From: Thermocoleostomius sinensis A174
GTDB taxonomy: Bacteria > Cyanobacteriota > Cyanobacteriia > Elainellales > Elainellaceae
Assembly (NCBI RefSeq): GCF_026802175.1
Contig: NZ_CP113797.1
Coordinates: 3,945,026-4,009,025 of the forward strand
Direction of reading: 5' to 3'
Length of the DNA: 64,000 nt
Position numbers and translations under genes: made by a program. Below, piece after piece: positions 59,580-64,000 of the stretch; the stretch's first letter is position 1; every line of letters begins with the position of its first letter. A model generated the notes under the pieces. That model had not been told where the DNA came from and did no database searches. It worked only from the letters and a program-made list of their open reading frames with translations.

Positions 59580-61238
59580 TTAATTAGACGCTACTGCATA
59601 GTGTACTAACTGCGCCAATCGTTGACGTAAGGTTTCCAACCCCAGCCGATCGCTGGCTGAAATGAACACCGCCTGTGGATATTCTTCTTTGGCAAAGGCA
59701 AGGGTTTCGCTATCTACTTGATCAACTTTGTTAAACACCAACAGCGCCGGGCCAGGTGTGACGGGCATTTCCGAGAGAATCGTCATCACCGATCGAATCT
59801 GGCTTTGCCAAGCCGAGTGAGATAAATCCACCACATGCATTAACGCATCTGCTTCGGTGACTTCTTCTAAAGTGGCACGGAACGCATCCATCAGCGAAGG
59901 CGGCAAATCATGAATGAAGCCGACTGTATCTGTGAGGACAATTGATAATGGCTTGTGAGTTTCGGCATTGGTAATTGTCAGTCGCCGAGTGGTGGGATCA
60001 AGCGTCGCGAATAGCTGATCGGCAGTGTAAACCTCTGCATTAGTCAGCACATTCAGTAGGGTAGATTTGCCAGCATTGGTATAGCCCACAATCGCAATCG
60101 AGGGCACTTCTTGATGTTGCCGCTGTTGTCGCAGCCGCGATCGATGCGCTTGCAGTTGATTCACTTCTTGTTGCAACCGCGAAATCCGTCGTTGAATGGC
60201 GCGGCGTTCGGTTTCCAATTTGGTTTCACCGGGCCCCCGTGTGCCAATTCCACCCCCCAATCGAGACATAGCCCGTCCCCGTCCTGCTAGCCGCGGCAGC
60301 ATATATTCCAACTGTGCTAGTTCTACCTGTAATTTTCCCGCCCCAGATTGAGCCCGTTGCGCAAAAATATCTAAAATGACCTCCGTCCGATCGACGACTC
60401 GAAGACCAATCTGCATTTCCAAGTTGCGTACCTGAGCCGGAGACAAATCGCGATCGAACACAATTAAATTTGCACCAACTGTTTGAGCAGCCAGGGCAAT
60501 TTCCTGAACTTTGCCTTCGCCTACCACGGTTTGAGGATGGGGAGCCGGGCGCTTTTGTCGTAACACCTGAAGCACTTCGCCGCCCGCCGTTTCCACGAGT
60601 CGCGCCACTTCCAACAATCCATCCTGGAAGCGCTGAGCCGATAAATGATTGGTCATTAACCCCACCAGTAGCACGCGATCGTGCTCAGAGCTAATCTGTT
60701 GGGCAACATACTCTCGTCGAAATTCTTCTTCCAAGCCCTCTACAAGAGCGAGAAAGTCTTGCTGAGACAACACATCCAGATTAAGGGGAGGAGAAACCGT
60801 CCAGGTTACTTCTGGATGCGGAACCAAGTGCGCTAAATAGGTTTGCTTCACATATCCGGTTGCACCGCCGCCTCGTCGCTCAAACCCCCCTCCTGAGAGA
60901 GTAAGAGTCACCAATGCATCAAGTCGCTGAAGGACCATGGCAGTGAGGACGGCATCACTGGGCGCTTCTGATTTCAGTTGGGTCGCAATGCAGCGAATAC
61001 CGCTCAAGCGTTCTGCCCCATAGCGCGGCAATTCCAGGGGTGGAATTTGGGTTTGGCGAACTGTTCCTACACCGACCCGAATCACCTGTCCACGCCGATT
61101 GACATACGCACAGACAGGCTGATTTATATCGGTACTGATGGCAGCCAAACGCTGGGCAAACTCGAACGTAGTGATGCGATCGCCTGGCAATCGCTGGTGA
61201 TAGAGCCGCTGTAACTGCTTGATTTGGCTAGGCTTCAA
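59580..61238 (-). CDS. hflX: GTPase HflX
   Basis: A ribosome-associated GTPase that splits stalled ribosomes and binds the 50S subunit. The 552-residue protein is longer than the enterobacterial form because of an N-terminal extension (about 1-185), typical in cyanobacteria. The HflX domain has RQKRPAPHPQTVVGEGK and the glycine-rich RGPGETKLETERR. The G domain begins VGYTNAGKSTLLN (G1) with DTVGFI (G3) and NKVD (G4). Start is ATG 61238. It is adjacent to the TPR remnant on the same strand, 158 bases downstream of it. Confidence 0.95.
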   Translation of the reverse strand: MKPSQIKQLQRLYHQRLPGDRITTFEFAQRLAAISTDINQPVCAYVNRRGQVIRVGVGTVRQTQIPPLELPRYGAERLSGIRCIATQLKSEAPSDAVLTAMVLQRLDALVTLTLSGGGFERRGGGATGYVKQTYLAHLVPHPEVTWTVSPPLNLDVLSQQDFLALVEGLEEEFRREYVAQQISSEHDRVLLVGLMTNHLSAQRFQDGLLEVARLVETAGGEVLQVLRQKRPAPHPQTVVGEGKVQEIALAAQTVGANLIVFDRDLSPAQVRNLEMQIGLRVVDRTEVILDIFAQRAQSGAGKLQVELAQLEYMLPRLAGRGRAMSRLGGGIGTRGPGETKLETERRAIQRRISRLQQEVNQLQAHRSRLRQQRQHQEVPSIAIVGYTNAGKSTLLNVLTNAEVYTADQLFATLDPTTRRLTITNAETHKPLSIVLTDTVGFIHDLPPSLMDAFRATLEEVTEADALMHVVDLSHSAWQSQIRSVMTILSEMPVTPGPALLVFNKVDQVDSETLAFAKEEYPQAVFISASDRLGLETLRQRLAQLVHYAVASN

Positions 61239-61396: not shown

Positions 61397-61825
61397 CTAT
61401 CTATTAACCCATGCTTGCCGGAGCGACTCAAATTGCTGCTTAAGCCAGCGTCTGATTCTAGCTTTTGGAGACAGATAGTCCTGACCCACCGCGCGATCGT
61501 AACTGGCATAAGCTTCTTGATAGCGCCCCAAGCGGTGCAGAGCAACCCCCCGAAACGTCCAGGCTTCTGAATAGTCTGGGCTAATTGCAATCGCTCGATC
61601 GCAGCTTTCCAAGGCTTCTGAATACTGCTCTAGGTGAATTAGCATGACTGCCCGAAACACCCAGGCTGCCGTATCATTTGGCTGTAAGGCGATCGCACGA
61701 TCGAAACTGTCCAGTGCCTCAGCATAGTTGCCCAAATTGGCCAGATCGTTTCCGCGTAAAAACCAGGCTGCATTACTCTAGTCTAGTAATTCGGTTTGAT
61801 TAAAATCAGTAAGCACTCTCTTCAT
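61397..61825 (-). pseudogene. TPR protein gene with in-frame amber stop
   Basis: An ATG at 61825 opens a frame of 15 codons that meets TAG at 61778-61780. The same frame then continues at once into SNAAWFLRGNDLANLGNYAEA, the first helices of a TPR, and on through three TPR-like units to a stop at 61397. A start at the internal ATG 61735 would begin in the middle of the first repeat and is a poor N-terminus. The likeliest reading is a nonsense mutation in a short (about 142-codon) TPR gene, or an alternative TTG start after the stop. Stop-codon readthrough cannot be excluded. Its position next to the caspase-nSTAND gene may be incidental. Confidence 0.6.
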
Positions 61826-62683
61826 AGATGCTACAAGTTAAGGAATATAAGCACCCCTCAGTTCACTCATCCTAATCAGCCATGCCTGCTTAATCTGGAT
61901 TAGAAGTAACACTCGATCTAGTCTTACACAAGACGAGACTAAAGAACTTTATTCCAATCTATCTTTACTTTAAAAAAAACTAAAAAATCATTGTAAAGAA
62001 ACTGTAATCTTACTGAGGTCGAGTAGAAAGCGACCGAGATCACTGCCAAAGTTCAGAATTTCCTCTTAAGTAAAAACTGGGAAATCCTATTTTTTCTCCT
62101 ACCAATCATCGTATTTCAACGGAGAAATTAAATACAATTCATGTTTGTTATTTAAGCGTATTGCAAGTAGTTTCTCTCAACTAAAACCCACTGTTTAAAT
62201 AAGGGTTTTCACCCCCTTGTACAGAGTGTAAAAGTTTGGTTATTTTCATTTTAGAAGTTGTTCCTTCTCAAAAATTTAATGCAAGAGCAATTGTTGATCT
62301 TCATTGAAGTTTAGAAGCGGTGAAAGACCATTTTTAAGCGAGACGCTGATGGCAATCTACCTCTCTGAATTTTAACGAGAGGAAACTCAGTCTCTACGCT
62401 TCCATTCGGTGCGTAATCTTTAGCGAGGCTCAAATGAACTCGCAGATTCACACTGACTTTTATCGAGGGCAGACGCGAAATCGTTCGTTGATTGCAAGAA
62501 TCTTCTAGTTTTCCCTAACAACAGCTAGCCATGAGTTGGGGGACTTTGACAGGCGATTGCTCTGTCTTCAGAGAATCCAATTTTTTTAAGTCAATCAATT
62601 TAATACGCTAGTTCTAACAATTATTCATCGGCCCTTATTTTTGTCCTCAATCGTTGATTTCAATACAAAGGGGTAAGTGAATT
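61826..62683. other. long AT-rich intergenic region
   Basis: About 860 bases separate the TPR gene from the caspase gene; both genes are transcribed outward. It is AT-rich and contains no open frame of note. A short hairpin, CCTCTC with GAGAGG near 62360-62383, lies in a region that could be a long leader of the caspase gene. No known RNA family is recognised. Confidence 0.45.
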
Positions 62684-64000
62684 GTGCGGGATGCCTTGGT
62701 GGTCGGAATTAATACTTATCAATCTCTGCCGAACTTAAAAGCACCAGCTAGAGATGCGGAAGCGATCGCCCAAATGCTGCAATCCCAAGGCGAGTTTCGG
62801 GTGCATCGTGTGCCAGAAGTTATTCAAGCTGGCAAAACAGCGGTAGGTCAAAAAACGCAGGTGACACTGCGCGAATTAGAAACTGCCCTGATCAATTTGT
62901 TCAAACCAAAAGGCAATCACTGTCCACAGACGGCATTGTTTTACTTTTCGGGCCATGGGCTTCAGCGAGAAGCAGGTATCCAAGAAGGCTATCTAGCTTT
63001 GAGTGATTCTCACCCCGATAAGGGGTTCTATGGATTATCGCTATTTTGGCTGCGGCGGTTACTACAAGAAAGCCCTGTTCGACAACGCATTATTATGTTG
63101 GATTGTTGCCACAGCGGTGAATTGCTGAACTTTTTAGAAGCTGATCCGGGGGCACAGTCGGGCATCGATCGCCTGTTCATGGCAGCTTCTAGGGAGTACG
63201 AAACCGCATTTGAATCATTAGACAGTCCCTACAGTGTTTTCACGCAAGCCATTCTCACTGGCTTGGAACCGCGCCGGGTTGAATCGGGAATTGTCACCAA
63301 TCACTCTTTGACTGACTATGTGAATCATGCCCTCAAGGGTGAAATTCAACAGCCATTATTTGAAAGTTCAGGAAGTGAGATTGTCTTGACTCGGCAGACG
63401 GGTTTACCTACAGCTACCCCAACCGTCATTAAATCTACAGACATTTGCCCTTATCGAGGCTTGGAATCGTTTGATGAAGCACATGCTGATTTTTTCTTTG
63501 GACGAGAAGATCTAACCGAAACCCTCATCACCAAACTCAAAGCCGATCGCTTTGTAGCCGTTGTTGGGGCATCAGGCATCGGTAAGTCTTCATTGGTGCG
63601 AGCCGGCATGCTAACGCGGCTGCGACGAGAGAAAACCGCGACAGGAGACGATCGTTGGCGCATCAAGTTCATCACTCCAACTCGACATCCGCTCAAAGGT
63701 TTGGCCGCCACCTTCATCGATGCCGCAGCTTCAGATTTAGAACGGGCTGAACAACTGCGCCGAGCCGAGGAATTCTTACAAGACGGTGGTAATGGGCTAG
63801 CGCAACTGGTACGGGCCAGTCTACCAATTCACTCTACGTCGTCTGAATTGAATGTACGAGAACGATCGCGCTTATTGCTGGTTGTTGACCAATTTGAAGA
63901 GGTGTTTACCCTATCTCAAGGCTCGGAGGCAGAACAGGAACGCCAACAATTTTTTAATTGCTTGCTAGGAGCGGCTGAGCTTGCCAAAGATTGCCTCAGC
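62684..64000 (+). CDS. caspase-like protease fused to an nSTAND1 ATPase (5' part, runs off the window)
   Basis: Begins at GTG 62684 (AGGGG ribosome site about ten bases upstream) and continues past base 64000; 439 codons are seen. Domain 1 (about 1-240) is a peptidase C14 caspase-like domain with His91 in FYFSGHG and the Cys pair in MLDCCHSG (Cys142 presumed catalytic). Domain 2 starts near 255 with the nSTAND1 opening CPYRGLESFDEAHADFFFGRE, then Walker A VVGASGIGKSSL (295-303) and Walker B LLLVVDQFEEVF. WD40 or TPR repeats usually follow. Proteins of this layout act as ligand-triggered proteases in cell death and defence; which signal is unknown. Confidence 0.92.
   Translation, partial: MRDALVVGINTYQSLPNLKAPARDAEAIAQMLQSQGEFRVHRVPEVIQAGKTAVGQKTQVTLRELETALINLFKPKGNHCPQTALFYFSGHGLQREAGIQEGYLALSDSHPDKGFYGLSLFWLRRLLQESPVRQRIIMLDCCHSGELLNFLEADPGAQSGIDRLFMAASREYETAFESLDSPYSVFTQAILTGLEPRRVESGIVTNHSLTDYVNHALKGEIQQPLFESSGSEIVLTRQTGLPTATPTVIKSTDICPYRGLESFDEAHADFFFGREDLTETLITKLKADRFVAVVGASGIGKSSLVRAGMLTRLRREKTATGDDRWRIKFITPTRHPLKGLAATFIDAAASDLERAEQLRRAEEFLQDGGNGLAQLVRASLPIHSTSSELNVRERSRLLLVVDQFEEVFTLSQGSEAEQERQQFFNCLLGAAELAKDCLS

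Follow-up and report, generated by a model that had tools for sequence, protein, structure and literature searches.

A caspase-nSTAND1-WD40 gene beside hflX in filamentous cyanobacteria and the conserved promoter-like element ahead of it

The window analysed here, 64,000 nucleotides long, runs from base 3945026 to base 4009025 on the single 5.81-Mb contig of Thermocoleostomius sinensis A174. A gene for a protein with an N-terminal caspase domain followed by an nSTAND1 ATPase runs off its downstream edge (table 1). An initial annotation had proposed it as the best candidate in the window for an undescribed regulated-death or antiphage system, with sensor repeats and any partner proteins lying beyond base 64000. 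We followed the gene 4.0 kb past the edge and found a frame of 1787 aa with no stop (L002 4684-10047, L002 coordinates being window coordinates minus 58000). A broken gene was therefore rejected. A ribosome-binding-like AAAGGGG lies ahead of the start codon. The base composition of the gene resembles that of the rest of the window, it is present in a single copy, and it gives the only full-length nSTAND1 match in the genome.

Table 1. Features of the caspase-nSTAND1 locus (window coordinates).
Feature	Position	Strand	Remarks
hflX-type ribosome-binding GTPase gene	59580..61238	-	divergent conserved neighbour
Small TPR-repeat gene, divergent	61397..61735	-	several relatives have a homolog in the corresponding position
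Palindromic operator-like half, AAGGGTTTTCACCCCCT	62201..62217	+	unique in the 5.8-Mb genome; conserved ahead of orthologs
Promoter-like half: TGTACA, 17 bp, TATTTT	62218..62246	+	TANNTT spacing across ortholog regions
Presumed 5' leader, about 430 bases, AT-rich	62247..62683	+	neither sequence nor length conserved
Caspase-nSTAND1-TM (probable)-WD40 gene	62684..64000, continuing past the window to genome C1:4013072	+	ORF, GTG start, first 439 of 1787 codons in window
Caspase (Peptidase C14, p20-like) domain, residues 1-240	62684..63403	+	PF00656 E=7e-21, residues 4-228
nSTAND1 ATPase, residues 256-670 (in-window part)	63449..64000	+	PF20703 E=1.9e-120, profile 1-378/379

The catalytic dyad of the caspase domain is intact and lies exactly where the initial annotation had placed it, at His91 (FSGHG, residues 88-92) and Cys142 (DCCHSG, residues 140-145). 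The P-loop ATPase was also correctly recognised: the match to nSTAND1, a clade of STAND NTPases, is significant over the whole profile, and both Walker A (GASGIGKSS at 295, with Lys301 as its lysine) and Walker B (VVDQFEE at 400) are present. A hydrophobic segment follows at residues 718-740, with a 19-residue mean hydropathy of 1.79 (1.2-2.2 in orthologs). It is kept in 21/21 orthologs and is a probable membrane helix; lysine and arginine are in excess on its N-terminal side in all 21, hence an N-in topology is expected. The sensor repeats predicted beyond base 64000 were found as WD40 repeats at residues ~800-1275 and ~1431-1745, separated by a low-complexity insert and followed by a conserved tail (1746-1787, 62% median identity). 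The modelled C-terminal part (pTM 0.73) has ~56 strands in repeated fours, and its best Foldseek match is a repetitive propeller, followed by Apaf-1; other double propellers were matched too. This corresponds to two WD40 propellers with roughly 14 blades. With an intact dyad in the p20 domain, and ATPase and WD40 repeats C-terminal to it, the protein falls among the WD40 orthocaspases (cbMC-beta).

The N-terminal model is trustworthy for the ATPase part alone, which matches the STAND/ORC-like ATPases Cdc6/Orc1 (ORC), Apaf-1 and Avs4. The alignment was too shallow for the caspase part, which is poorly modelled. Since its pLDDT is about 30-66, the model does not confirm the geometry of the active site. 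A search by sequence returned no significant solved structure resembling the caspase domain.

Two other genes of this genome encode caspase domains, both in different architectures. One (L151 1016-6590; G000:C1:5595015-5600589) encodes 772 aa with the motifs FSGHG and DACHSG. Two genes follow it, one for a Ser/Thr kinase and one for a short protein, and the products of all three end in similar WD40 repeats, which makes this a caspase-kinase-propeller cluster. The other (L152 967-3240; G000:C1:1780466-1782739) encodes 757 aa and has FSGLG in place of FSGHG. Its dyad is seemingly lost and the product is probably a pseudo-orthocaspase.

The nearest named relatives are filamentous cyanobacteria (among them Filamentous cyanobacterium CCP2, Oculatellaceae, Elainella and Leptolyngbyaceae). 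Orthologous segments with 55-79% identity occur in 32/35 other genomes of the family; the three exceptions have a relative of 48% identity (G021), a distant match to the ATPase (G008) or no match (G002). Across the class, 66 of the 242 genomes match the protein at E<=1e-120. Dyad and Walker motifs are retained, and the dyad is invariant in all 21 full-length orthologs. Over these 21, median identity is highest in the caspase (80%), intermediate in nSTAND1 (64-71%) and lowest in the WD40 part (36-52%). The orthologs of family f13 keep the caspase, the ATPase, the helix and a degenerate form of the upstream element described below and have no WD40 repeats, and more distant relatives carry pentapeptide repeats or other tails at the C terminus. 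Hence, the sensor module is replaceable, and a sensor role of WD40 repeats is not universal. In all four f13 loci that were read (L146-L149), the WD40-less gene adjoins an SbcC/Rad50-like gene, so that its conserved neighbour there is not hflX.

The upstream neighbourhood is largely fixed. A divergent hflX lies beside the ortholog in 15/19 loci of the same family (15/21 ortholog loci in all), often with a small TPR gene in between; it does not adjoin the ortholog in families f25 and f19. Distances between caspase-nSTAND1 proteins and between HflX proteins show a moderate correlation (Mantel r=0.48, reached by 39/5000 permutations). In the small TPR gene of this genome (window 61736-61830, - strand), an apparent in-frame TAG lies near 61778, after MKRVLTDFNQTELLD, where the homologs of relatives read through; this is either a nonsense change or a sign of a later start codon. 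The partner proteins anticipated beyond base 64000 did not materialise, as the genes downstream are not conserved among the 21 ortholog loci and no partner gene is. Here they encode a FAD-binding oxidase, an NTF2-like protein and an orange-carotenoid-protein N-domain protein, followed by a DeoC/LacD-type aldolase, an Ap4A phosphorylase and a GMC oxidoreductase. The neighbours are housekeeping or photoprotection genes, and the only PADLOC hits among them are weak ones, in which models for GTPases and TPR proteins cross-match. The near-universal presence, the place beside hflX among housekeeping genes, the invariant dyad, and the protease being the most and the WD40 part the least conserved domain argue for a vertically inherited chromosomal core gene, and not for an undescribed mobile antiphage system.

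The region 5' of the gene is AT-rich, as the initial annotation had noted (GC is 0.37 in 61800-62683 and 0.486 in the window as a whole), and this is common to the orthologs (GC 0.32-0.47). No Rfam family matches L002, the 5' region included, and on that ground the leader was not taken to contain a riboswitch or another known RNA. The 5' regions of orthologs are almost unconserved except for one block: AGGGGT-N3/4-ACCCCCT, then TTTACA (or TGTACA, TGGACA), 17 bases and TANNTT. This element occupies 62201-62246 in the window, ~430 bases ahead of the start codon (170-700 in relatives). TANNTT lies exactly 17 bp past the hexamer in 29/43 ortholog regions and in at most three at any other tested spacing, three of the 43 having been retrieved with a pattern that contains the TANNTT box. 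Hexamers at a fixed 17-bp spacing beside a conserved palindrome correspond to the layout of a sigma-70 promoter with an operator, and we infer from this a working promoter. A generic promoter scan makes no call at the element and its hexamers are weak relative to the sigma-70 consensus; this would be in keeping with a promoter dependent on an activator at the palindrome.

Nearly every ortholog has the element. With up to 3 mismatches allowed, this genome contains no second copy of it. A strict version of the pattern has 14 matches in the 242 genomes, all 14 ahead of an ortholog and on the correct strand; the reversed-pattern control has none. A looser version has 20 matches, of which 18 precede an ortholog (families f1, f6, f16 and f25) and two fall within ORFs and were put down to chance, against about ten for its reversed-pattern control. 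The palindrome core is present by rule in 38/41 ortholog upstream regions, a count that omits five further regions found by the pattern itself, and by eye in a 39th (L061); it is present in 0.8% of shuffled regions. Families f16 and f13 played no part in deriving the element, and the core was found in 12/12 and 4/4 of their regions, respectively. The element is still there in f25 and f19, where hflX is not adjacent. Searching five genomes with the core palindrome for a regulon revealed no likely target common to genomes; its other matches in these genomes are without the promoter tail, many of them inside ORFs. These sequence patterns lend support to the special regulation that had been suspected from the long 5' region, now in the form of a conserved, locus-specific and apparently dedicated promoter-like element.

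Palindromes sharing this core also occur away from the locus. Two resembling GGGGGGTGTCACCCCC lie 220 bases apart, at G000:C1:3163168 and 3163388 (L162, L167), behind an amidohydrolase-like gene, and a similar one lies behind an amidohydrolase-like homolog in another genome (G010:C181:10005, L160). These are probably hairpin terminators that share the core of the caspase element.

We think it fairly probable that the locus encodes an orthocaspase of filamentous cyanobacteria that works as a single protein, anchored in the membrane and gated by ATP, and that is vertically inherited beside hflX under a dedicated operator-promoter with a long leader. Sensing, oligomerisation, proteolysis and outcome are the inferred parts. 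The protein would be silent until its propellers meet a signal, which the C-terminal WD40 repeats probably sense. The nSTAND1 domain would then bind ATP and oligomerise, bringing the caspase domains together and activating them. By analogy with other orthocaspases, the active caspase would cleave cytosolic proteins after arginine or lysine, and the cell would as a result undergo regulated death or mount a strong stress response. The membrane helix would put the propellers outside the cytoplasm, as an earlier study suggested for similar proteins (PMC7475262). Propellers on the far side of the membrane would be unable to hold the ATPase in a clamp of the Apaf-1 kind. Either signalling runs through the helix, then, or segment 718-740 does not span the membrane. 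The fixed place and the locus-specific promoter-like element suggest that the gene is a core switch for stress or cell death under tight control, and not a mobile antiphage system.

Other functions have to be weighed against this one. In antiphage abortive infection, the propellers would detect some component of the phage, and the infected cell would be killed by the caspase. Defence by STAND proteins with an N-terminal effector is well established, and Avs4 is among the fold matches. The PADLOC caspase model matches residues 4-187 (E=1.6e-17), the WD40 part varies most, as an evolving sensor would, and some relatives exchange the C-terminal part for pentapeptide repeats or other tails. Yet known defence genes tend to be patchy and to occur in clusters, and what we found is a single-copy gene of window-like composition, present in nearly the whole family at a fixed site among housekeeping or photoprotection genes, and not a patchy, defence-island or mobile one. 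The antiphage part of the initial proposal is unlikely on these grounds; the regulated-death part is plausible. A protease for proteostasis or acclimation would account for the vertical inheritance, the putative dedicated promoter and the conserved divergent hflX: it would cleave a few regulatory proteins, possibly together with HflX ribosome rescue, and would not kill the cell. Tolerance of oxidative stress has been connected with a pseudo-orthocaspase in a cyanobacterium (PMC7889975). The families in which the element persists away from hflX speak against this coupling, and we hold such a role to be somewhat improbable.

The upstream element might also be a short terminator or RNA hairpin instead of a promoter. 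The palindrome AGGGGT-N-ACCCCCT is followed by T-rich bases, its loop varies between 3 and 4, and plain palindromes with the same core can sit just behind genes elsewhere in the genome. This is nonetheless quite improbable: TANNTT at a constant 17 bp is expected of a promoter and not of a terminator, a terminator scan found none at the element, and the C side is constant (CCCCC) whereas the G side opposite varies between A and G, which breaks the pairing. If the element is a promoter, a broader proposal can be made, which we put forward tentatively, as a possibility rather than an expectation. In filamentous cyanobacteria a core apoptosome-like protease would be under a promoter of no other gene, with a palindromic operator directly 5' of the -35, conserved across several families despite changes of neighbours and sensor, so that one regulator would serve the death protease alone. 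At stake is whether cyanobacterial caspase homologs really execute programmed death; the presence of several such homologs in many strains is one reason why this is still an open question. With its fixed place and locus-specific element, a single-copy ortholog offers one gene and one promoter to work on and, in the DNA-binding factor, a handle on when cells commit to the switch.

Several known systems resemble this protein. Antiviral STAND proteins of the Avs type (e.g. Avs4) share the effector-STAND-sensor layout and the ATPase fold, whereas here WD40 repeats stand in place of a TPR-like sensor, the effector is a caspase, and the gene has a fixed place and a near-universal family presence. 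The two-gene EACC1-caspase conflict system (Kaur 2020, PMC7159879) also has an N-terminal caspase, varied C-terminal domains and membrane association, and the NCBIfam model caspase_w_EACC1 scores 102, below its cut-off of 140. That system has a co-directional 5' EACC1 gene. It was rejected since no such gene occurs here, where the TPR gene and then hflX lie on the other strand, or in most relatives. The Apaf-1 apoptosome with procaspase-9 shares a mid-chain STAND ATPase, two C-terminal WD40 propellers and a caspase output. However, the caspase is fused here and recruited by CARD there, the ATPase is nSTAND1 here and NB-ARC there, and here a probable membrane helix stands between the ATPase and the propellers. 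By this analogy, the protein would be an apoptosome-like switch in one chain; an Apaf-1-like logic was outlined earlier for cyanobacterial orthocaspases (PMC2853523 and PMC7475262). The closest likeness is to the cbMC-beta orthocaspases, described in the accessible portions of three surveys (PMC2853523; PMC8283722; PMC7475262) as having, as here, an N-terminal caspase with intact His-Cys, a P-loop ATPase and 13-15 WD40 repeats, in some with a membrane helix between caspase and WD40, and with a proposed role in programmed death. The surveys label the ATPase NACHT or AAA_16, and here it is nSTAND1. In the same portions, NACHT-WD40(13-15) caspase forms are already listed in 2010 (Jiang 2010, PMC2853523), and in a set of 473 putative orthocaspases from cyanobacteria, WD40 and AAA_16 are the domains most often joined to the caspase. 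The system can therefore not be called undescribed. These portions hold no mention of a fixed hflX neighbourhood or a promoter-like element, and the literature searched, which covered few subscription journals, gave no description of the promoter of such genes, or of a fixed position with near-universal family presence. Thus, the protein type has been known since 2010, and what looks new is its fixed place together with a conserved, locus-specific element.
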